This document shows positions 20,869 through 42,040 of a stretch of DNA of 42,040 nt, one piece after another. The stretch spans positions 1-42,040 of IMG/VR virus record IMGVR_UViG_3300036768_000632; one strand, 5' to 3'. Made by a program: the position numbers and the translations under genes. Each line of letters opens with the position of its first letter. The stretch's first letter is position 1. The stretch comes from a virus. The notes under the pieces were generated by a model. It ran no database searches. It had not been told where the DNA came from and saw nothing but the letters and a program-made list of their open reading frames with translations.

Positions 20869-22560
20869 ATGGGCCGGCCAAACGATTGCAGTTGCCACTG
20901 TGAAAGCTCGTCGAGTTCGTCGCCGAGTAGCTCGCCCAGTAGCTCTTCTCCGAGCAGCAGTTCATCGCCGTCGAGTAGTTCGCGGAGTAGCTCGTCGCGG
21001 AGCAGTTCATCTCCGAGCAGTTCGTTGAGTAGCTCCCTGTCGAGTAGTTCGCGGTCGAGCAGTTCATCGCTCAGCAGTTCCTCACCGAGTAGCTCCTCGC
21101 AGAGTAGCAGTTCTTCGCTGAGCAGTAGTTCCTCGTCGAGTAGCTCCTCGCCCAGTAGTTCGTCATCGAGTAGTTCTTCGCTGAGTAGCAGTTCGTCACC
21201 GAGTAGCTCTTCTCCGAGTGGCTCATCGCAGAGCGGCTCTTCTCAGAGCAGTTCTTATCCGAGCGGCTCTTCGCTGAGTTCGTCGTCGTTTGGTAGCTCC
21301 TCATCGAGCAGTTCTTCTCTGAGCAGTTCTTCGCCGTCGAGTTCTTCGTCGAGCAGTTCGCCGAGTAGCTCGATGCCGAGCAGTTCCTTGTCTAGCAGTT
21401 CGCATAGCAGTTCCTCGCTGAGCAGTTCTTCGCAAAGTAGCTCCTCGTCGAGTTCGCCGTCGAGTAGCTCGCCATCGAGCAGTTCGCCGAGTAGTTCCGC
21501 GTCCAGTTCGCCGTCGAGTAGTTCTTCTCCGAGCGGTTCTTCGTCGATTTCCTCGTCGAGCAGTTCTATTCCGAGCAGTTCGTCCGCTAGTAGCTCATCA
21601 CTGAGTAGCTCACTGTCGAGTAGCTCTCCGAGTAGTTCGCCGTCGAGTTCGTCGCAAAGTTCCTCGTCGAGTTCTTCGCCTAGTTCATCCGATAGCAGTT
21701 CGTCCGCTAGTAGTTCCTCGCTGAGTTCGTCGCAGAGTAGCTCGTCGCCGAGCAGTTCTTCTCATGGAAGTTCTTCGCAGAGTAGTTCTTCGCCGAGTTC
21801 TTCTCAGAGTAGTTCATCGCAGAGCAGCAGTTCCTCACAGAGCGGCTCGCCGAGCAGTTCCTCGTCGAGTTCGCCATCGAGCAGTTCATCGCCTAGCAGT
21901 TCCTCGTCGAGTTCGTCTCCGAGCAGTAGTTCGCCGTCGAGTAGTTCTTCTCCGAGCAGCAGTTCTTCGCCGTCGAGCGGCTCATCTTCGAGTAGCTCTT
22001 CGCTGTCGAGTAGTTCGTCGCCTAGCAGTTCGTCCGCTAGCAGTTCTTCGCTGGCGAGTTCCTCGCAGAGTTCGTCATCGAGCAGTTTGTCGCAGAGCGG
22101 CTCGTCGCAGGGCAGTTCTCTGGCTGGCAGTTCATCCGTTAGCGGCTCTTCTCAGGGCGGTTCATCGCAAAGCAGTTCCTCGTCGAGCGGTTCGTCGCAG
22201 AGTTCGTCATCGAGTTCCTCGTCGAGCGCGAGCGAAGCCATGACCTGTCCCGATTTCGGCGCGACGATGTACGGCACGATTGTGGGCTGCGGGTCGAACG
22301 TGCTGGGGAGCTTTCAGATTCAAAACTGCGTGCACGCCTACAACCTCCATCCAGAGCTACAACAGTTGCGATTCTGTTGTAACGGCAGTAGCTATACTGC
22401 GGAGGCGTGGACCGGGGTGCTGGCGAGTTATTCCGTAGGCACAGTGGTTTCCGTGAATACTAACCCGCTCGAAATCTGCTTTGAGTTTCGGCAACAGTAT
22501 CCAGGTCCGCCGAATTTGTTCGCAGGCTGCGAAGTCTTGACGATATGTTTCACGCTTTGA
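20869..22560 (+). CDS. Giant serine-rich fibre-like protein with C-terminal Cys domain
   Basis: A 563-residue protein. After CSCHCES at the N-terminus, about 440 residues are nearly all serine, interrupted by Pro, Gln, Leu, Gly, Ala and a few others in irregular SSSSP-like units. From residue 458 a normal 106-residue globular domain follows, with about seven cysteines (TCPDFGATMYGTIVGCGSNV; LQQLRFCCNGSSYTAEAW; EVLTICFTL). Architecture is that of an extended stalk with a terminal head, like a tail fibre or adhesin. Two glycosyltransferase-like genes follow, the first overlapping it, so heavy O-glycosylation of the stalk is a reasonable inference. Confidence 0.75.
   Translation: MGRPNDCSCHCESSSSSSPSSSPSSSSPSSSSSPSSSSRSSSSRSSSSPSSSLSSSLSSSSRSSSSSLSSSSPSSSSQSSSSSLSSSSSSSSSSPSSSSSSSSSLSSSSSPSSSSPSGSSQSGSSQSSSYPSGSSLSSSSFGSSSSSSSSLSSSSPSSSSSSSSPSSSMPSSSLSSSSHSSSSLSSSSQSSSSSSSPSSSSPSSSSPSSSASSSPSSSSSPSGSSSISSSSSSIPSSSSASSSSLSSSLSSSSPSSSPSSSSQSSSSSSSPSSSDSSSSASSSSLSSSQSSSSPSSSSHGSSSQSSSSPSSSQSSSSQSSSSSQSGSPSSSSSSSPSSSSSPSSSSSSSSPSSSSPSSSSSPSSSSSPSSGSSSSSSSLSSSSSPSSSSASSSSLASSSQSSSSSSLSQSGSSQGSSLAGSSSVSGSSQGGSSQSSSSSSGSSQSSSSSSSSSASEAMTCPDFGATMYGTIVGCGSNVLGSFQIQNCVHAYNLHPELQQLRFCCNGSSYTAEAWTGVLASYSVGTVVSVNTNPLEICFEFRQQYPGPPNLFAGCEVLTICFTL
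20904..22230 (+). repeat. Serine-codon low-complexity tract
   Basis: About 1.3 kb of DNA made of imperfect 6- to 15-base units such as AGCAGTTCT, TCGCCGAGTAGC and TCGTCGAGC. All codon families for serine (AGC, AGT, TCG, TCC, TCT, TCA) are mixed, so the protein repeat is kept while the DNA repeat is broken up. This would reduce slippage and indicates selection for serine content. Confidence 0.85.
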
Positions 22561-31453: not shown

Positions 31454-32155
31454 ATGTTCTCAGAGAAGGCCCGCGAATTGTTGATGCAAGTTGCCGACCG
31501 CATCGAGCGGTCTCCTGAGTCGTATGACCAGGGTGATTGGTGTCGCGATACCGAGCACGGCACTATTGCCAACATTGCAGCGCACATCTGCGACATCGCA
31601 GGTGTGCATAGTCTCACGCCAGACAGCGGATTCAGGTGGGCGGAAAACGCCCGCCGGGCACTCGGCGTCGCCGACATCGGGCCGCTGTTTCGTTGGGAAT
31701 TTCACCCAACGATGGGCATGTCCGCGTACCTGCGGCTAATTGCCCGCGAGGGTCAGTTCCGGCTCCTCGCGCCAGAGGAAGAGCCGGACGCGGAGACCAG
31801 GAACGTAGTCGCTCACTGCATTCCGCGTGAGCGGATTGAGAGTGTTCCATCTCCCACTGAAGAACCCAACGCCTCGGTGCGGCGGAAAATCGCCCGCCGC
31901 ATCCCTGAGGAGCGGCTGAACAAGCTCCTCGCACCCGCCGAGGAGCCAGATTCGGAGGTGAGATGGACTGTCGCAAACCGAATACCCGTTGAACTTCTGC
32001 CAAGGCTCTTAACTCCCTCCGAGGAGCCTGAAGCGAAAGTGCGGTGGGAAATCGCCCACCGCATTCCGGCGGAGCGAATCGCGCACATGCCGTCGGAGGA
32101 CGAGGAACCAAGCAAAAATGTGCGCTGGGTTATCTCCCAGCGCCTCGGCCAGTGA
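31454..32155 (+). CDS. LRV-repeat solenoid protein with unique N-terminal domain
   Basis: A 233-residue protein. Residues 1-~95 form an unrelated helical domain (SEKARELLMQVADRIERSPE, DPGDWCRDTE-like segment, FRWAENARRALGVADIGPLF). After this come four complete 27-residue repeats and two partial ones, each of the form Rxx(V/I)AxRIPxERLx(R/K)L, then x(S/T)PxEEPDxxV. The pattern resembles the LRV (leucine-rich-repeat variant) family (VRxxVAxxxxxPxELLxxLAxDPDxxV) but with a 27-residue period and no 4Fe-4S cysteines. It probably folds as a short alpha solenoid for protein binding. The hairpin leader and downstream terminator make it a self-contained cassette. Confidence 0.75.
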   Translation: MFSEKARELLMQVADRIERSPESYDQGDWCRDTEHGTIANIAAHICDIAGVHSLTPDSGFRWAENARRALGVADIGPLFRWEFHPTMGMSAYLRLIAREGQFRLLAPEEEPDAETRNVVAHCIPRERIESVPSPTEEPNASVRRKIARRIPEERLNKLLAPAEEPDSEVRWTVANRIPVELLPRLLTPSEEPEAKVRWEIAHRIPAERIAHMPSEDEEPSKNVRWVISQRLGQ

Positions 32156-34376: not shown

Positions 34377-34457
34377 CGAGCGGGCGGTCCGCTCGCGCTA
34401 TGGACTAGCGACGGCCTCTGTGCCGATCTGCGATTCTTACAGCAAGTGGGAGGAGAT

Positions 34458-35969
34458 ATGTTGCTTTCTCACATGAAGGCGGTCACCGGGGCCGTCTTCA
34501 TCGAGACTCGCGAAGAGAAGCGGCTAATGGCCAGCCTGTTTTCTGAACTGGCTGGTATCGCCAAGGAATTCGCGGTCGTCGCCGCGCCGAACGGCGTTGT
34601 CCGTTCCTTCAGAGTTGTCGGTGGCTCTGTGTCCACCAGCAAAGAACCGCTGGTGAGTCCCGCCGGTGGCCAGATGACGCTTATCGCGGCCTATGAGTGG
34701 GTCGCTGCGTCGCCAAAGCGAGTGCTAGTCGTCCAGGACTGGCACGTTCTAGCGAACACGCCGGTGCACTGGAGGCTAGTGTCGGACTACTTGTCCCGAT
34801 GGCAGAACCCGGCGGGCAGGCATCCCGGAGAACCGCCATCGCTGGTCGTATTCGTGGGGCCAGCACTGACGCTGGACTCGAACAACCCTCTAAAAGGGCT
34901 GCTGCCGATTCTTCAGTTCGACCTCCCGTCCCGCGACGATTTACGGGCGGTAGCAAGCGGAGTCGCTGAATTGCCCGCTGGCGCCGCCGGAGAGGCGCTG
35001 GTTGATGCTCTGTGCGGCCTGACTGCGGACGCCGCCGAGCAAGTCTGCGCTGAAACGGTGGCTCGCGGCCAAGGCTGGAACCTGGATTCACTGCTATCCG
35101 GCAAGCGGCAAGTGCTACGCGAGAGTGGTGTCAACCTGCTCCCGCCCGTGAAGCAGATCGGCGGTCTTGGCCGCCTGACAGGTTTCGTTCACAGCGAACT
35201 CATCCCGTGGTTGCGCGATCCGATGCTCGCCGAGCGACGCATCCTCTTGTACGGCATGATGGGGTGCGGCAAGAGCTTGTTTGCCCGCTGGTTGGCCGGG
35301 CAACTTGGCTGTCTCGTTGGCGAAACCTCGATGTCTAGCCTGAAGGCTGGCATCGTCGGTGCGTCTGAGGCGAACCTGCGCCGCGCGCTGCGCATAGCCG
35401 ACGAGATGGGGAGGCACGCACCGTACATCATGTTGCTGGACGAGATTGATACCATTCCGCGTGATGGGCTGGATGGTGGCACTTCCAGCGGGATGATGCA
35501 GATTCTCTTGACCACGCTCAACGATTGGTTGAGCACAGGTCAGAACCAGGTGATCGTTGTCGCCACGGGCAACGACTTGGAGAGGCTTGATCCGGCTTTG
35601 GAGAGTCGGTTCACGAGCCGCTGGTTCGTAGACTTGCCGACGTATTCTGAGCGGCGCGAAATCGCCGCACTGCACTTCTCTCAGTACGGCTGCGTCAACG
35701 TCGATTGCGCAGCAAAGCTGGTGGCGGAACTGACCGAAGGATACTCCGGGCGTGAGATCGGAATGGATATCTGCCGATCTGCGGCTCGGCTCTCCAATCG
35801 CAAGCTGGACTCCGACACTGTGCGACTGGCAGTCAAGAGGACAACGCCGGTGAGCGTTACACAGCCGGAAAAACTCAGCAAGATGCGGTCAGCAGCCGCG
35901 TCTCTGCGCAAGGCAAACAACGAGGACGACGGTGTAGACCCTAGCCCTACGCGCAGGGTCATGGCATAA
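34458..35969 (+). CDS. Ycf46-like AAA+ ATPase
   Basis: A 503-residue AAA+ protein. The N-terminal part (LSHMKAVTGAVFIETREEKR; VLVVQDWHVLANTPVHWRLV) matches the pattern of Ycf46-type ATPases. The AAA module has Walker A LYGMMGCGKSLFARW near residues 264-278, Walker B MLLLDEIDTIP near 323-333, a sensor-1-like ATGNDLERLDPALESRF and arginine-rich LESRFTSRW. It is followed by a DUF1257 gene, also a Ycf35 relative. The ATG at 34458, after GTGGGAGGAGATAT, is preferred over the upstream ATG at 34332, which lies in the terminator. The role may be remodelling or loading of an unknown complex. Confidence 0.85.
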   Translation: MLLSHMKAVTGAVFIETREEKRLMASLFSELAGIAKEFAVVAAPNGVVRSFRVVGGSVSTSKEPLVSPAGGQMTLIAAYEWVAASPKRVLVVQDWHVLANTPVHWRLVSDYLSRWQNPAGRHPGEPPSLVVFVGPALTLDSNNPLKGLLPILQFDLPSRDDLRAVASGVAELPAGAAGEALVDALCGLTADAAEQVCAETVARGQGWNLDSLLSGKRQVLRESGVNLLPPVKQIGGLGRLTGFVHSELIPWLRDPMLAERRILLYGMMGCGKSLFARWLAGQLGCLVGETSMSSLKAGIVGASEANLRRALRIADEMGRHAPYIMLLDEIDTIPRDGLDGGTSSGMMQILLTTLNDWLSTGQNQVIVVATGNDLERLDPALESRFTSRWFVDLPTYSERREIAALHFSQYGCVNVDCAAKLVAELTEGYSGREIGMDICRSAARLSNRKLDSDTVRLAVKRTTPVSVTQPEKLSKMRSAAASLRKANNEDDGVDPSPTRRVMA

Positions 35970-35980
35970 GGAGAACAACA

Positions 35981-36583
35981 ATGCTGAAGAGATTCGATTG
36001 CGATAGGACGTGCCCGATGGCTCACGAGCACTTCTGTCGGTTCAATGCGGTCTTCGAGAAGCTCGGACCTACTGTGGTGGATAGCCATACGGCTACCATC
36101 AAGACCGAGTTTCGCGACATGGATACACTCGCCGCAGCCGTCAAAGCGCTCGGCGGAAGCGTGCTCGGAATGGGCACGCATCGGCTTTACTCGGAGAGCA
36201 AAGCGGGCTTCGGCTTCACGCTGCCGGGCTGGCGATACCCGATCATCTGCCAGTCGGACGGAACGTTGGCCTTCGATGCTTACAACGGCGCGTGGGGCAA
36301 CGTCGCCGACTTGGAACGGCTCAAGTCGGAATACGTCATCGCAACCGCTGAGATGGCCGCACAGGCTCAGGGCTGGTTGACGGAGCGCAACGGCGGGACG
36401 CTCACAATTCACCACCCGTCGGGCGGAACGTTGACAGTCACCGCGAACGGAGCCGAGGCGATTGGATTCCTTGGAACAGGATGCCATGAGGCTCTGATGA
36501 GTCTGAACCTGCCGATGGCGGAGCTAGTCGCCAAGCCAGAATACACACAGGCAGCCGTCGAGGTGCGGCAAGGAATCGCGTAA
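35981..36583 (+). CDS. DUF1257 (Ycf35-like) protein
   Basis: A 200-residue protein with the DUF1257 look: VVDSHTATIKTEFRDMDTLA, AAVKALGGSVLGMGTHRLYS (SHxxxxxTxxxD..AL..LG), YPIICQSDGTLAFDAYNGAW, RLKSEYVIATAEMAAQAQGW. Function is unknown; in cyanobacteria and plastids the relative is Ycf35. It begins 11 bases after the AAA+ stop with AAGGAG, so the two are probably made together. Ycf46 and Ycf35 relatives are found paired in several phages, but their shared role is not established. Confidence 0.75.
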   Translation: MLKRFDCDRTCPMAHEHFCRFNAVFEKLGPTVVDSHTATIKTEFRDMDTLAAAVKALGGSVLGMGTHRLYSESKAGFGFTLPGWRYPIICQSDGTLAFDAYNGAWGNVADLERLKSEYVIATAEMAAQAQGWLTERNGGTLTIHHPSGGTLTVTANGAEAIGFLGTGCHEALMSLNLPMAELVAKPEYTQAAVEVRQGIA

Positions 36584-36594
36584 TTACACCCGAA

Positions 36595-36797
36595 GCGCTG
36601 GCGGGTTGAGACCAGCGCAAATCTCCAACCGAGTGCGGGAGCGATCCCGCGTTGTTGGCCCAGCTAGGCTGTTCGGAGTCTTTCCCCGATGAATCGTCGG
36701 GCGAGAGCGCACCGACTTGGTCGCCATGAAATCCGGGCGGAAGCGATTCCGGACGCATGAAGGCCGGACGTAGTGGCAATCAGGAAGGCGAGGACGG
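36595..36797 (+). ncRNA. Candidate structured RNA upstream of the reverse transcriptase
   Basis: A 214-base gap without a credible gene, made of consecutive hairpins. H1: GCGCTGG/CCAGCGC (36595-36601, 36612-36618), perfect 7-bp stem. H2: GCGGGA-GCGA-TCCCGC (36635-36650), perfect stem with GNRA loop. H3: CCCGAT-GAATC-GTCGGG (36685-36701). H4: CGAC-TTG-GTCG (36713-36723). H5: TCCGG/CCGGA (36732-36753). An ordered row of stems directly before a retron-like RT is the layout of a retron msr region. A clear a1/a2 pair and branching G were not identified, so the retron assignment is tentative. Confidence 0.55.
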
Positions 36798-37877
36798 ATG
36801 GCCGCAATGGAGTCACACAGAGGATTGAAACGCCATCGTCGTAGTCGTCCAAAGAGTTGTCCGACTACTCCTCTGTCGCTTCAATCTGTGGGCCAGAAAG
36901 TAGGCGTTGTGCGAATCGCGAAAATCCCCAAGGGGGGCGGTAAGCTCAGGACGATTTACTGCCCCAACTCAAAAGAGAAACGGCAGTATCGCGCGCTGCT
37001 GCCGAAGCTCCACGAGCTACACGCAAAGTTGGTGGAGCAGCACGGGACTCGCGGGGTGGCACACGCCTTCGTGCCTAATCGCAACCCCGTGACCTGCGCG
37101 CTGCCGCACTGCGGATTCAAGGTCACGGTGAGCTGTGACCTGTCGAACTGGTTCGACAGTGTGACCATGAAGAACCTGCTCGATGCCGGATTCCCGCCGG
37201 AATTGGCCGAGGCGGTGACGCTGCCGGATGAGCAAGGCGTTCGGCGACTGCGCCAAGGACTGCCAACGTCGCCGGTCGCGGCCAACATCGCCGCCGTGAC
37301 GATGGACGCGGACATCCTGTGGTATTTGAGCAATATCAGGCGGAATTCGCAGGATATCTGCCACACCAACTTCGACTTCACCTATACACGCTACGCGGAC
37401 GACATCAATGTGTCGTTCACCGTGGATTTCGATGATGACGGCATCCGCGTATTGGTGCAGGCGATTGTGAAAATGGTCGCCATGTACGCGGCGATGCGTG
37501 GCTGGACCGTCGCGGAGCACAAAACGCGCGTACAACGCGCCGAGGCCGGGCGGCGGATCATCGTTGGGATCGCGGTCGATGACTATATCCACGCCACGCG
37601 CAAAACCCGGCGCAAGCTGCGCGCGGCCAGGCATCGGGCAGCGCTATGCAAAGGCCACAAGAAGCGAAACAAGGCAGCGATGTCCGCAAGTGGGCTGGCC
37701 GAGTGGGCGGCCTGTAAGCTGCCTCGATTGTGTCGCGGGACGCGGCAAGTGATGGGCGTCTTGGCTTCGATCAGCGCGAGCGCACCGCAGGCCACGACAA
37801 CCGAAGCGCCGAGACTGGCTGCCTACTCTGGCTCTGGTCGTGGAGTGCTTGTCGAGGTGAAGGACGAAAAGCTATGA
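36798..37877 (+). CDS. Retron-like reverse transcriptase
   Basis: A reverse transcriptase of up to 359 residues. RT motifs (numbered from ATG 36798): VVRIAKIPKGGGKLRTIYCP (RT0/1), VSCDLSNWFDSVTM with the first catalytic Asp114, RQGLPTSPVAANI (RT4), YTRYADDINVSF with the YADD catalytic pair (199-202), and RRIIVGIAV. QGxPTSPxxAN is the retron-like form; a DGR RT would have SQ there. The retron marker motifs are degenerate: CALPH in place of NAxxH and IVG in place of VTG. ATG 36798 has weak GAGGA spacing; GTG 36888, just before RIAKIPK, is a strong alternative. Its TGA overlaps the start of the LRV-repeat gene (ATGA). Confidence 0.85.
   Translation: MAAMESHRGLKRHRRSRPKSCPTTPLSLQSVGQKVGVVRIAKIPKGGGKLRTIYCPNSKEKRQYRALLPKLHELHAKLVEQHGTRGVAHAFVPNRNPVTCALPHCGFKVTVSCDLSNWFDSVTMKNLLDAGFPPELAEAVTLPDEQGVRRLRQGLPTSPVAANIAAVTMDADILWYLSNIRRNSQDICHTNFDFTYTRYADDINVSFTVDFDDDGIRVLVQAIVKMVAMYAAMRGWTVAEHKTRVQRAEAGRRIIVGIAVDDYIHATRKTRRKLRAARHRAALCKGHKKRNKAAMSASGLAEWAACKLPRLCRGTRQVMGVLASISASAPQATTTEAPRLAAYSGSGRGVLVEVKDEKL
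36816..36890 (+). ncRNA. Long imperfect hairpin at the start of the RT gene
   Basis: CACAG(AGG)ATTGAA at 36816-36829 pairs with TTCAAT-CTGTG at 36880-36890, and inside it GTAGTCG (36841-36847) pairs perfectly with CGACTAC (36862-36868). The whole is a ~75-base stem with internal loops, resembling a retron msd hairpin. It overlaps the N-terminal codons if the RT starts at ATG 36798, but only touches the start if translation begins at GTG 36888. Confidence 0.5.
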
Positions 37878-38998
37878 ATAGTGTGTCATACGAGTTATTG
37901 ATGTCGGCAATCCAAGCTGTGGAGATCGAATGGGCGAGTATGTGCCCACGTCTCTTCACGCAGGCCGAAGTGCCGGATGCCAAGCTGCGGCGGCTAATCG
38001 CCGAGAAAATAGAAGCGGAGCGATTGGAACGCATACTAACGCCACAGGAAGAGCCGGACGAAGCAGTGCGGATGATGGTCGCCAGCCGCATTCCGGCGGA
38101 GCGTATTGATCGGCTGACTACAGTGGAGGAAGAGCCGGACAAAAAGGTTCGGCGTATTATCGCCCAGCGCATCACCGCCGAGCGGCTAACCAAGCTGCCC
38201 ACCACTGCCGAAGAGCCTAGCGGAGCGGTGCGGCGCTACCTTGCCGAGCGCATCCATGAGGATCGAATCGTAATACTGCCGTCACCGCAGGAAGAACCGG
38301 ACGTGCGCGTGCGACTCACTATCGCGGCACGCATTCCGCCGGAGCGTCTGGAACGGATTCGCTCACCTACTGAGGAGCCTGATTTGCAAGTTCGGTTCGC
38401 TGCCGCCGAGCGCATCCCTGCGGATCGAATCTTACGCATCCCGTCACCGCAGGAAGAGCCGGTCCCATCGGCGCGATTGTTGATCGCCTCGCGAATTCCA
38501 GAAGAGCGGATGGATAGGCTGCTCAGCATAGATGAAGAGCCGGATTCGTGGGTGCGGAGCAAAGTCGCCGAGCGCATCCCTGAGGATCGAATCATAAGAC
38601 TGCCATCACCGCAGGAAGAACCGGACGGATTGGCGAGGTGGATGGTCGCTCGCCGCATACCAGCGGAGCGTCTGACGCGGCTTCCCACATCCGCTGAAGA
38701 ACCCGACGTGCACGTGCGACTCTGGGTCGCTCGCCGAATTCCGGTGGATAGATTGGAGCGGCCACTTACGATGGAGGAAGAGCTGGACCAAGCTGTACGA
38801 CAAGTCGTCGCCGACCGCGTGCCTGCGGAGAGAATCGTCCGCATTCCGTCGCCGGACGAAGAGCCGCAATGGCGCGTTCGGCTGGCAATCGCTAAGCGCA
38901 TCCCTGTCGAGCGGCTGGAACGGCCACTCAAGATTAAGGAAGAGCCGTACTACCACGTGCGACGAACCGTAGCCGACCGCATTGGCTCGTCGAGGTGA
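37874..38998 (+). CDS. Large LRV-repeat solenoid protein coupled to the RT
   Basis: A 374-residue protein starting at ATGA overlap with the RT stop, so probably translated by the same ribosomes. N-terminal ~38 residues (SYELLMSAIQAVEIEWASMC) form a helical cap; next come 12 complete 27-residue repeats (Rxx(V/I)AxRIPxERLxRLxSPxEEPDxxV) and a final partial one ending DRIGSSR. Repeat ends are acidic (EEPD) and helices basic (RRIP). The solenoid would give a large surface for protein or nucleic-acid binding. A start further upstream at 37730 reads antisense-like through the RT end. AAGGA precedes the ATG. Confidence 0.85.
   Translation: MNSVSYELLMSAIQAVEIEWASMCPRLFTQAEVPDAKLRRLIAEKIEAERLERILTPQEEPDEAVRMMVASRIPAERIDRLTTVEEEPDKKVRRIIAQRITAERLTKLPTTAEEPSGAVRRYLAERIHEDRIVILPSPQEEPDVRVRLTIAARIPPERLERIRSPTEEPDLQVRFAAAERIPADRILRIPSPQEEPVPSARLLIASRIPEERMDRLLSIDEEPDSWVRSKVAERIPEDRIIRLPSPQEEPDGLARWMVARRIPAERLTRLPTSAEEPDVHVRLWVARRIPVDRLERPLTMEEELDQAVRQVVADRVPAERIVRIPSPDEEPQWRVRLAIAKRIPVERLERPLKIKEEPYYHVRRTVADRIGSSR
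38786..38880 (+). repeat. 95-bp block identical in two LRV genes, copy 1
   Basis: Identical base for base to 39544-39638, 758 bp downstream in the next LRV gene, then mismatch on both sides. It encodes the repeat with ADRVPAERIVRIPSPDEEPQ. Neighbouring repeats in the two genes differ widely, so this is a sharp island of identity. Confidence 0.9.
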
Positions 38999-39036: not shown

Positions 39037-39780
39037 ATGAGCAGGGTGTCGTCAGAGTTGGCGAGGCGTGTCATCCAAGCGGTGGAGTTCGAGCGAGCGA
39101 TGATGTGCCCGCGTCTACTCACGCCGGCTGAGTCGCCGGATGTAGCGATGCGGCGGCTGATCGCCGATAACATCGAATCCGCGCGCTTGGAGCGCATACT
39201 AACTCAACAGGAGGAGCCGGACGAAACGGTACGTTGGACTGTTATTGTCCGCATCCCTGCTGATCGTATTTTCCGCCTGCTTGGCCAGAGTGAAGAGCCG
39301 AACGCGCTGTCGCGGTGGCAGGTGGCAAATCGCATCCCCGCCGAGCGCTTGCATCGGCTCATTACGCCGACCGAGGAGCCGGAAGAAGGTACGCGGTGGG
39401 TTGTCGCAGTCCGTATCCCATCCGAGCGGTTGGTCAAGCTGCCTACCCCTGGCGAAGAACCGAGCAGGAAGGTGCGGATTCGCGTGGCCGACCGCATCCC
39501 TGTCGAGCGGCTGGAGCGGCCCCTCACTGAGGACGAAGAACCAGACCAAGCTGTACGACAAGTCGTCGCCGACCGCGTGCCTGCGGAGAGAATCGTCCGC
39601 ATTCCGTCGCCGGACGAAGAGCCGCAATGGCGCGTTCGCCTGGCAATCGCCCGCCGCATTCCTGTGGAGCGATTGGAATGGCAACTCACACCTGCCGAGG
39701 AGCCGGACCAAGATGTACGTCAGGCCGTAGCCGACCGCATTGGCCGGAATCGACCCGCAACGGAGGATCAATATGATTAG
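39037..39780 (+). CDS. Second LRV-repeat protein of the RT region
   Basis: A 247-residue paralogue of the RT-coupled protein. The N-terminal cap matches it (SELARRVIQAVEFERAMMCP), then seven complete 27-residue repeats follow, ending DRIGRNRPATEDQY. It starts 38 bases after the previous stop without the shared hairpin leader. Its stop overlaps the next gene (ATGATTAG at 39773-39780), another case of translational coupling. A 95-bp island is identical to the previous gene, showing recent recombination between the pair. Confidence 0.8.
   Translation: MSRVSSELARRVIQAVEFERAMMCPRLLTPAESPDVAMRRLIADNIESARLERILTQQEEPDETVRWTVIVRIPADRIFRLLGQSEEPNALSRWQVANRIPAERLHRLITPTEEPEEGTRWVVAVRIPSERLVKLPTPGEEPSRKVRIRVADRIPVERLERPLTEDEEPDQAVRQVVADRVPAERIVRIPSPDEEPQWRVRLAIARRIPVERLEWQLTPAEEPDQDVRQAVADRIGRNRPATEDQYD
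39544..39638 (+). repeat. 95-bp block identical in two LRV genes, copy 2
   Basis: Copy of 38786-38880. Flanks diverge immediately (39543 A versus G; 39639 C versus G), consistent with gene conversion or exchange of one repeat unit. Confidence 0.9.
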
Positions 39781-40408
39781 GCTGAATCTGAAATCCACGG
39801 TCATCAGGGCCGCGTCCAAGCCATTGCGGAAGGACTTAGCGGCGGTGCAACTTGTACCAAGCGCCAACGAGGCCGAAGCGTTCGCCGCCGCGACTAATGG
39901 TCTAATCCTAGCTGTCAGCAGGGAAGCCACGAAGATCGACCGCCGCGTGTTTATTCCAGCCAGCGTCTGCCGGAGCAAGGCCGGCGAGGTTGAACATGAA
40001 ATCCTTTACGACGAGACAAATAAACAGTGGTCTCGAAACTCATGGAATCGCAGGCGGAAAAAGAAAGTAGTTACCGCACCTGAAAAGGGGCGGCGGTTCC
40101 CGCGAACGCAGGACGTGTTGCCGAATGTCAGCGGCGATACGCACATCGCCGTGACGCTGGACGCCAAGCAGTTGGCGAAACTCGCCAGCGCGATGGGAAC
40201 CAACAACGAGGAGAGTGATATCACGCTCTTTATCCCAGTACCAAAAAGGGGCGAGTTTTACGGACCGATCCCAGCGGTTCAAATATCCGATTCAACAAGC
40301 ATTGGGGCCATTGCTGTGGTCTGTTCCAATAGTGACCGCAATAACTCTTTCGCGGCCTACAACAGGCTGCGTGATGAGTACGTTTCGGCTGCTAACGCAG
40401 CCGAGTGA
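39773..40408 (+). CDS. Beta-clamp-like protein
   Basis: A 211-residue protein overlapping the LRV gene stop by 8 bases. The first part, VIRAASKPLRKDLAAVQLVP, then EAEAFAAATNGLILAVSREA and RRVFIPASVC, resembles one domain of a bacterial DNA polymerase III sliding clamp (helix, strand, then AxDGxRLAxxx, VxxPxxxL). The C-terminal part has SDITLFIPVPKRG and PIPAVQISDSTSIGAIAVV, like the clamp's last strands. A full clamp has three such domains, so this would be a single-domain or divergent form, and the role is uncertain. ACGGAGG precedes the ATG. Possibly a clamp decoy or polymerase partner. Confidence 0.5.
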   Translation: MIRLNLKSTVIRAASKPLRKDLAAVQLVPSANEAEAFAAATNGLILAVSREATKIDRRVFIPASVCRSKAGEVEHEILYDETNKQWSRNSWNRRRKKKVVTAPEKGRRFPRTQDVLPNVSGDTHIAVTLDAKQLAKLASAMGTNNEESDITLFIPVPKRGEFYGPIPAVQISDSTSIGAIAVVCSNSDRNNSFAAYNRLRDEYVSAANAAE

Positions 40409-40432
40409 AAGCGACGCCAGCACGTCTAACCC

Positions 40433-40448
40433 GGCGGCGCTGGCCGCC
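40433..40448 (+). promoter_or_regulatory. Leader hairpin copy 7
   Basis: GGCGGC-GCTG-GCCGCC, then ACGACAATGGAGAGAATT and ATG 40467. Stem perfect; the Shine-Dalgarno is GGAG. Confidence 0.7.
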
Positions 40449-40466
40449 ACGACAATGGAGAGAATT

Positions 40467-40817
40467 ATGGAATACAACTTCCCGAAAGAACGGTTGCAGC
40501 GACCTATAACCAAGTATGAGGAGCCTGATGCTGACAAGCGGTGGAGGGCCGCAATCCATGTCTCTACCGAGCACATAAACCGGCTATTGACTCAGGACGA
40601 GGAGCCGCAATCTCTGACGAGGTGGCATTTGGCGTTCTGCATCCCAGACGTTCGCCTAGTCCGCCTGCCGTCGCCGGGCGAAGAGCCTGATGAGCGCACG
40701 CGCAAGCTGATTGCCAAGCGCATCCCGGCGGAGCGGCTGGAGCGAACGCTAACTCCAGACGAGGAGCCAGACCAAGTCACACGACGAACCGTCGCCGAAC
40801 GTCTTCGCGAGCACTGA
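40467..40817 (+). CDS. Short LRV-repeat protein
   Basis: A 116-residue protein with a partial repeat at the start (EYNFPKERLQRPITKYEEPD), three complete 27-residue repeats and a terminal part ending AERLREH. It has no N-terminal cap domain, so it could be a minimal solenoid. The start is ATG 40467, with GGAG 6 bases before it and the hairpin leader upstream; an ATG at 40455 would place the leader's spacer inside the gene. It is paralogous to the next gene. Confidence 0.7.
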   Translation: MEYNFPKERLQRPITKYEEPDADKRWRAAIHVSTEHINRLLTQDEEPQSLTRWHLAFCIPDVRLVRLPSPGEEPDERTRKLIAKRIPAERLERTLTPDEEPDQVTRRTVAERLREH

Positions 40818-40866: not shown

Positions 40867-41376
40867 ATGAACTACGATCATTTGCCTACGCCACAAGAGG
40901 AGACAAACCCGGCTGTTCGGCTGGTGATTGCCGAACGCATACCAGAGGAGCGGCTGACCCGCCTCCTCACACCAGAGGAAGAGCCGGACGCGGATGTGCG
41001 GCGGACTGTCGCCCAGCGCATCCCGGAGGAAATGTTGATGCGGCTCCCCGACCCGGACGATGAACCGGACTGCAAGGTGCGGCGCGTGGTCGCCAAGCGC
41101 ATCCTGCCGGAGTGGCTACTGCGGATTCCCGCGCCCGACGATGAACCGGACGAAGTAGTGCGGTGGCTGGTCGCCATCCGCATTCCGGTTGAGCGGCTGA
41201 TTCAGTTGCTCACACAGGCTGATGAGCCGGACGTGCAGACGCGGTGGATGGTCGCTCGCCGCATCCCGGTGCAGCGTATTGATTGGGTTCCTACGCCGGA
41301 GGAAGAGCCGAACAACGTCGTCAGGCTTGTAGTTGCCGAACGCCTCGGCTGGGGCTGGCCACTTCTCCCAGAGTAG
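40867..41376 (+). CDS. LRV-repeat protein, last gene before the right end
   Basis: A 169-residue protein with a short non-repeat start (NYDHLPTPQEETNPAV), five complete 27-residue repeats, and a terminal partial repeat with Trp-rich end (AERLGWGWPLLPE). Repeats match the consensus Rxx(V/I)AxRIPxERLxRLLTPEEEPDADV, with one deviating unit (KRILPEWLLRIPAPDDEPDE). It has leader copy 8 and is followed by a strong terminator, so it is its own transcriptional cassette. Confidence 0.75.
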   Translation: MNYDHLPTPQEETNPAVRLVIAERIPEERLTRLLTPEEEPDADVRRTVAQRIPEEMLMRLPDPDDEPDCKVRRVVAKRILPEWLLRIPAPDDEPDEVVRWLVAIRIPVERLIQLLTQADEPDVQTRWMVARRIPVQRIDWVPTPEEEPNNVVRLVVAERLGWGWPLLPE

Positions 41377-41609
41377 CAGTAGCTTCCATCCGCCGCTCTC
41401 CGAGCGGACCAACGCAGCCCCGGCCAGAGCATGACTGGTCGGGGTTATTGTTTCCCGCGCATCACACGGCAGCGGTTGCACGTGGTCCTTCTTGCGGAAT
41501 GTGCGGTTGAAGAATAAACTGAACAAGCGTGTCGATCCCTCTCTGGAGAAATCGCGTTACACGAAGAGACGGCTGCTTGGTTCTTATTAAGCAACGGAGT
41601 CCCGCACAG
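41377..41609. other. Noncoding stretch at the right end
   Basis: A 233-base gap with the terminator at 41418-41453 and, from about 41485, the start of the region that resembles 256-359 near the left end. In the antisense direction a frame reads QFILQPHIPQEGPRA, like the start of the left-end HTH gene, but stops soon after. Confidence 0.55.
41418..41453 (+). terminator. Strong rho-independent terminator
   Basis: CCCCGGCCAG (41418-41427) pairs with CTGGTCGGGG (41435-41444) with one G-U pair and a 7-base loop, followed by TTATTGTTT. It closes the accessory region. Confidence 0.75.
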
Positions 41610-41981
41610 ATGCCGCTAGCGCAAATCGGTGAAGCCGTACAGGCCGCGAACAAAGTGCTCGACCAATCCGCCCAATATGGATTTCTCGGTTACGCGCTGG
41701 CTGTGGTTTACCTCACGATGATCGGCGGACTCGGCCTGCACTTCTGGAAGGTGGTGCTGCCAGAACGCGATGCTCGGATCAAATCTACGCAGTCAATGAA
41801 CGAGTGTCTGGCGACACTAAGCCAGCAGTCGATTAGGACTACGGCAGTCCTGGAGTCTCAAGAAGCGCTGTTGCAAAAGCTGGACAACCGGCTGTCAACG
41901 ATTGAAAACGCCGTCGAGCAGCATCGCTGTGAGTGGCGCGAAGCCAATCTGCCAAGACGCGCGTCATCGGCTCACGCGTGA
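41610..41981 (+). CDS. Diverged second copy of the single-TM coiled-coil protein
   Basis: A 123-residue protein, the same length as the product at 360-731 and similar throughout (membrane segment GYALAVVYLTMIGGLGLHFW; coiled coil SQQSIRTTAVLESQEALLQK). Differences are mostly conservative (Ile/Val, Ser/Ala, Asp/Asn) with many silent changes, so the copies have diverged under selection for the protein. Either the genome carries two copies or two related strains are joined in one contig. GGAG precedes the ATG. Confidence 0.7.
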   Translation: MPLAQIGEAVQAANKVLDQSAQYGFLGYALAVVYLTMIGGLGLHFWKVVLPERDARIKSTQSMNECLATLSQQSIRTTAVLESQEALLQKLDNRLSTIENAVEQHRCEWREANLPRRASSAHA

Positions 41982-41985
41982 GTTA

Positions 41986-42040
41986 GCCATGTCACATCGT
42001 CGCACGAACAGCAATAAACACCCGGCATGGAATATCCTCG
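41986..42040. repeat. Terminal 55-bp repeat of 736-790
   Basis: The last 55 bases are identical to 736-790, while the base before them differs (41985 A versus 735 T) and the upstream ~480 bases are only similar. Exactly 55 bases is a common assembler k-mer length, so this probably marks where the assembly graph rejoins: the main genome would be a circle of 41,250 bp. Confidence 0.85.
41989..42040 (+). CDS. 5' end of the holin-like gene, cut by the window end
   Basis: ATG 41989 begins SHRRTNSNKHPAWNIL in the same frame as the gene at 739. Only 17 codons are present. It is either the same gene reached again on a circular map or a second copy. Confidence 0.6.
   Translation, partial: MSHRRTNSNKHPAWNIL

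Follow-up and report, generated by a model that had tools for sequence, protein, structure and literature searches.

Retrons, such as Eco1/Ec86 (St85 family) and Ec67, consist of an msr-msd RNA, a reverse transcriptase (RT) and an effector, and in DefenseFinder retron XIII includes an ARM-repeat component; to our knowledge, an effector is not known for every described retron. Retrons have so far been studied chiefly as bacterial defences and editing tools. In described retrons, as outlined in one report (PMC12548924), the RT, the ncRNA and the RT-DNA restrain a toxic effector until phage infection. Here, we analysed a 42,040-nt stretch of DNA (hereafter the window), a 42-kb phage record in IMG/VR whose genes include those for terminase, portal, capsid, tape measure, RecE and RecT. 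In a single co-directional run on the plus strand, it encodes an AAA+ ATPase and a DUF1257/DUF2997-like protein, followed by a 325-nt gap, an RT and two LRV repeat proteins. The RT resembles Eco1/Ec86 and Ec67 in lineage, fold, motif order and a long hairpin or gap directly upstream, but differs from them in its separate, mostly phage clade, its very short N-terminus, the markers CALPH and IVG, and an AAA+ module nearby; its upstream RNA is a candidate, and no known effector family was found beside it with PADLOC and Pfam. Our leading interpretation, held with modest confidence, is a retron carried by the phage, its RT belonging to a distinct clade that is almost entirely restricted to phages, in which the gap RNA would be copied and the resulting particle would work with the AAA+ module.

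The RT (322 aa; positions 36909-37877, plus strand) most likely starts at GTG 36909, within a longer ORF open from 36798, because its homologues start with 'MKIxKIPK' and its structural model is confident from residue 1. Consequently, a hairpin at 36815-36893 lies just upstream of the RT rather than within it. The intact ORF and its RYADDI and RQGLPTSP motifs bear out the RT with YADD and QGLPTSP described in an earlier note on this DNA, and the CALPH and IVG markers listed there indeed occupy the positions of the retron NAxxH and VTG motifs. CALPH and IVG are variants within the clade, whose member L025 carries TCARAH and VVG. A PADLOC profile search gave RT_XIII as the best match (1.6e-32), the top 25 of 40 matches all being retron types; RT_XIII ranks first with other retron types close behind, and the tree described below holds no certified type XIII RT. 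The clade relatives likewise matched retron profiles. Among NCBIfam profiles, retron St85 scored 4.6e-23, versus 3.9e-9 for group II and 0.14 for Drt2, and with the RT model as Foldseek query the 18 best PDB matches were retron RTs, the best DRT structure ranking 19th.

In an 83-row tree built by a quick method, with named retron types represented in part and neither DRT rows nor a certified type XIII RT, the window RT and 17 others formed one clade (SH-aLRT 99). This clade stands apart from the Eco1, Ec67-like, type I-A and RT-protease RTs, and the DGR (BPP-1 RT) and group II RTs fall outside it. The tree placement that the earlier note had proposed as a check thus puts the RT among retron RTs, with DGR and group II enzymes outside. 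Single-protein scans detected no close relatives of the window RT. A scan of IMG/VR found the RT family at 32-39% identity, and a scan of an 84,980-species genome collection found at least one clear clade member among the matches listed. The latter lies on a small Psychrobacter contig with MobA/MobL-like and transposase-like ORFs (read from their translations), and this contig is therefore probably a plasmid; the 18 clade RTs otherwise lie nearly all on phage contigs. A distinct phage RT clade is well supported by this tree, and the window RT is almost certainly a retron-lineage enzyme. That it might instead be a DGR, group II intron or DRT/UG enzyme, with which it shares general RT motifs, is hardly credible in view of the tree, the profile scores, the structure ranking and the QGLPTSP motif. 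The earlier reading of this enzyme as a divergent RT of retron type rather than a DGR is thus upheld by the tree, both profile sets and the structure comparison, as well as by retron-like RNA upstream of some clade relatives.

The gap between the DUF1257/DUF2997-like gene and the RT (36584-36908, plus strand) is a candidate msr-msd RNA by position and size. This tightly packed genome has 54 gaps with a median of 11 nt, among which it is the second largest. The nearest relative, L012, has a gap of equal size (~320 nt) before its RT and shares with the window the order AAA, DUF1257-like protein, gap and RT; sequence alignment of the two gaps gave no usable homology. At an msd-like position, the window gap contains the imperfect long hairpin noted above (plus strand; 30-nt arms, 73% complementary; z -2.1), whose location matches that of hairpins in L015, L016, L017, L020, L022 and L023. 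The row of hairpins described in the earlier note is present, but the fold is not clearly above chance, with z of about -1.2 to -1.6 for the upstream region (-1.2 over 337 nt) and 31 of 349 windows across the surrounding 14 kb folding equally well. No GUUUC hairpin and no a1/a2 arms above chance were found upstream of the window RT, and an Rfam search of the window returned zero matches. The pair TGGCCCA/TGGGCCA (near 36655 and 36888), picked out by eye as an a1/a2 candidate, was discarded, since the long-range pairing found there did not exceed that of controls. The upstream RNA is therefore plausible by position and not above chance by folding, and we lean slightly towards a functional ncRNA and msDNA in the window.

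Some clade relatives resemble known retrons more closely, having a1/a2-like arms and a GUUUC hairpin. In L027, 15-nt arms (CTCTGTCCGGCAGGG and CCCTGCTGGACAGAG) before the RT enclose a long imperfect hairpin as well as one with a GUUUC loop. In L027 and L015, the best long-range pairings beat 25 of 25 controls; for L015, the top pair shares bases with a terminator-like hairpin. The hairpin GGTGTTTCGCC, whose GUUUC loop is as in the RNA of retron Eco1 of laboratory E. coli, is common to L015, L016 and L027 at 160-186 nt 5' of the RT, and GGTGTTTCGCCG is likewise common to these three upstream regions, 160-186 nt ahead of the RT. Moreover, L022 and L023 each carry, 5' of the RT, the best hairpin of their locus, and L017 carries the second best of its own. 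Folding and long-range pairing revealed no clear RNA in several other clade members (L013, L019, L026, L103 and L167). Among cellular retron-type RTs, a GUUUC-loop hairpin was found upstream of 7 of 78 (L170, L177, L216, L219, L221, L226 and L238), versus 2.4% of control windows; this hairpin could be useful in searching for retron RNAs.

These RNA data bear on whether the RT has given up the classical msDNA role of its lineage or exchanged it for another, for example DNA synthesis that serves the phage itself, without a template or on other templates, and perhaps feeds RecE/RecT, with the gap acting as a promoter or leader. The lack of a clear msr-msd in the window and several relatives, the short N-terminus of the RT and the RecE and RecT genes of the phage would fit such a role, whereas the retron-like RNA features in L027, L015 and L016 and the retention of a gap of similar length in L012 argue against it, and we regard it as unlikely, though worth keeping in view. 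In the copied-RNA reading that we prefer, the gap would encode an RNA that the RT partly copies into a small RNA-linked DNA.

The earlier note had proposed that the protein encoded downstream of the RT is the effector, or the RT/msDNA partner, of a divergent retron type. The RT stop codon TGA (37875-37877) does overlap the ATG start codon (37874-37876) of this gene (37874-38998, plus strand), as noted earlier. The 374-aa product is an LRV repeat solenoid protein according to Pfam LRV (PF01816; 3.8e-10, above cut-off), a repeat HMM and a structural model. The count of 12 repeats given earlier holds for full 27-residue repeats, to which a partial repeat is to be added. Like other LRV proteins, it has the typical repeat pattern and an alternating helix/3-10 helix solenoid, with one helix and one 3-10 helix per 27 residues in the confident part of the model, residues 48-168 being poorly modelled. 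The model matches solved HEAT/ARM-type solenoids weakly and contains no catalytic domain. The protein matched no PADLOC model, so the parallel with the ARM-repeat component of retron XIII stays a lead. No close relatives of it were detected in single-protein scans.

What sets this phage apart from known LRV systems is the presence of five such genes, one of them translationally coupled to the RT. The second (39037-39780, plus strand) is a paralogue of the first with 67% amino acid identity across the shared part, and the others lie at 31454-32155, 5.4 kb upstream of the RT, and at 40215-40817 and 40867-41376; three of the five are not beside the RT. LRV neighbours share stretches of up to 84% DNA identity, which suggests recent duplication or repeat exchange and looks like the expansion of a repeat family within this one phage. 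In contrast, searches of whole records detected LRV genes in none of the other clade members covered, and 80 related viral RTs had no LRV repeats at distances up to 8 kb, so that the search for conserved RT-LRV neighbours found none, an outcome that the earlier note had itself set against its proposal. A cultured-phage collection likewise gave no match, and LRV was absent from 246 genomes of one phylum, a search run without a positive control.

Because the other clade records are without LRV while this phage has five, a retron type with an LRV effector is unsupported. A retron of three parts, with the LRV solenoid as effector or as RT/msDNA partner, would draw on the translational coupling implied by the ATGA overlap and on the general ability of alpha-solenoid proteins to serve as adaptors. 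The distribution just described, together with the three genes away from the RT, the missing PADLOC match and the lack of a catalytic domain, makes this improbable. LRV as an effector is therefore unlikely, a private effector or other role in this phage only is possible, and the RT-coupled LRV protein most likely serves for binding or as an adaptor in this lineage specifically, rather than as a conserved effector. That it works with the RT in this phage at all seems doubtful to us.

Upstream of the gap lies a two-gene module. The Ycf46-like AAA+ ATPase (34458-35969, plus strand; Pfam AAA 2.7e-23) is encoded in an ORF open from 34332, with homology from near 34455. The companion protein (35981-36583, plus strand) gave no Pfam match above cut-off and was assigned as DUF1257/DUF2997-like from its BLAST cluster with the DUF1257 proteins of L017 and L019 and a DUF2997-bearing protein of L012. 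In an all-against-all comparison of neighbours, Ycf46-like AAA with DUF1257- and DUF2997-type companions occurred in the window, L012, L017, L019, L023 and L024, and MoxR with DUF2201/vWA, or bpMoxR with vWA, in L013, L018, L020, L025 and L026, the domains being assigned with Pfam. Different modules occupy an equivalent place near the RT. The MoxR module with DUF2201/vWA is RavA-ViaA-like. The window module shares its gene pair or triplet and domain content with phage AAA+ modules of these kinds, but differs in being followed by a retron-type RT.

The position of the RT relative to AAA+ modules is non-random. Each of the 28 AAA genes shares the strand of the RT, with 26 lying upstream of it, and a DUF2201 gene, present in 17 of 50 whole records, lies at most 2 kb from the RT in 14 of the 17 (the exceptions being L012, L022 and L084). 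Several module-bearing phages are close kin, and occurrences were hence counted by RT lineage at 45% identity; a module gene was found within 2.5 kb in 14 of 48 such lineages. The Ycf46-RT link is looser than the DUF2201 link: ten strong Ycf46 matches comprise three less than 2 kb from the RT, three at 3.6-5.3 kb, two at ~10 kb and two far away. Near 63 other viral retron-type RTs, MoxR-DUF2201 occurred in 13 cases and bpMoxR in three, while no Ycf46 module was found within 8 kb. Some RTs outside the clade are among those that adjoin a same-strand MoxR/DUF2201 or bpMoxR/vWA pair (L013, L018, L020, L025, L026, L030, L034, L043, L046, L055, L058, L072, L081 and L086-L091), the companion gene lying a few hundred bases from the RT.

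In reverse sampling, an RT was found near 0 of 80 Ycf46-type loci and 1 of 80 DUF2201 loci, the sole case being the L018 phage itself. With 159 of 160 sampled loci lacking an RT, these modules are therefore common without RTs, and a tight two-way link between AAA+ modules and RTs was rejected. This result, and the different modules found at the same place, would also suit an RT cassette that is a moron-like accessory tending to insert behind AAA+ modules in the early-gene region, with neither the module nor the LRV protein working with the RT. That arrangement is conceivable but not what we favour, considering the shared strand and mostly upstream position of the AAA genes and the companions near the RT in several separate RT lineages. 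Overall, we judge a functional link of the RT to the AAA+ module to be an evenly balanced question.

If such a link exists, as our preferred interpretation supposes, the RT-RNA-DNA particle would cooperate with the AAA+ module, whether as sensor, brake or client. The particle could keep its partner in check, and judging from recurrence in the clade, the candidate partner would be the AAA+ module rather than LRV. The target might be competing phages or the host response, the phage gaining by excluding competitors. More tentatively, these loci may represent a phage retron type in which an AAA+ machine, either Ycf46 with DUF1257/DUF2997 or MoxR with DUF2201/vWA, takes the place of a classical toxin as partner of the particle, with LRV solenoids added to the RT operon here as extra binding proteins. 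We found no paper on phage retrons with AAA+ modules of these kinds. If true, an almost purely phage-borne clade linked to AAA+ machines would mean that phages use retron chemistry for purposes of their own. Its RTs, which in several members are compact (263-322 aa), would be of use in editing, and the link would open a first way into the function of AAA+ modules that many phages carry.

Several further features were observed. Four clade RTs (L014:4054-5409, L016:8058-9353, L022:7968-9338 and L027:8007-9347) have a common C-terminal extension of ~190 residues with WTSC... and ...RIYG... motifs and no Pfam match, which may represent a fused effector. At its two ends (251-790 and 41477-42040), the window record has 84% identical DNA and paralogous genes; either the paralogues are in tandem or the genome is circular and was opened between them, an exact terminal repeat being excluded. 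Between 31 and 34.4 kb, short DNA repeats close to gene starts (32160-32237/34319-34397, 31369-31449/32554-32639 and 30999-31041/32251-32294), with identities of 86-95%, may have a regulatory role. Past the tail genes, a 563-aa ORF (20869-22560) consists mostly of serine runs interrupted by P, Q, L and R and ends in a short ordered C-terminus.
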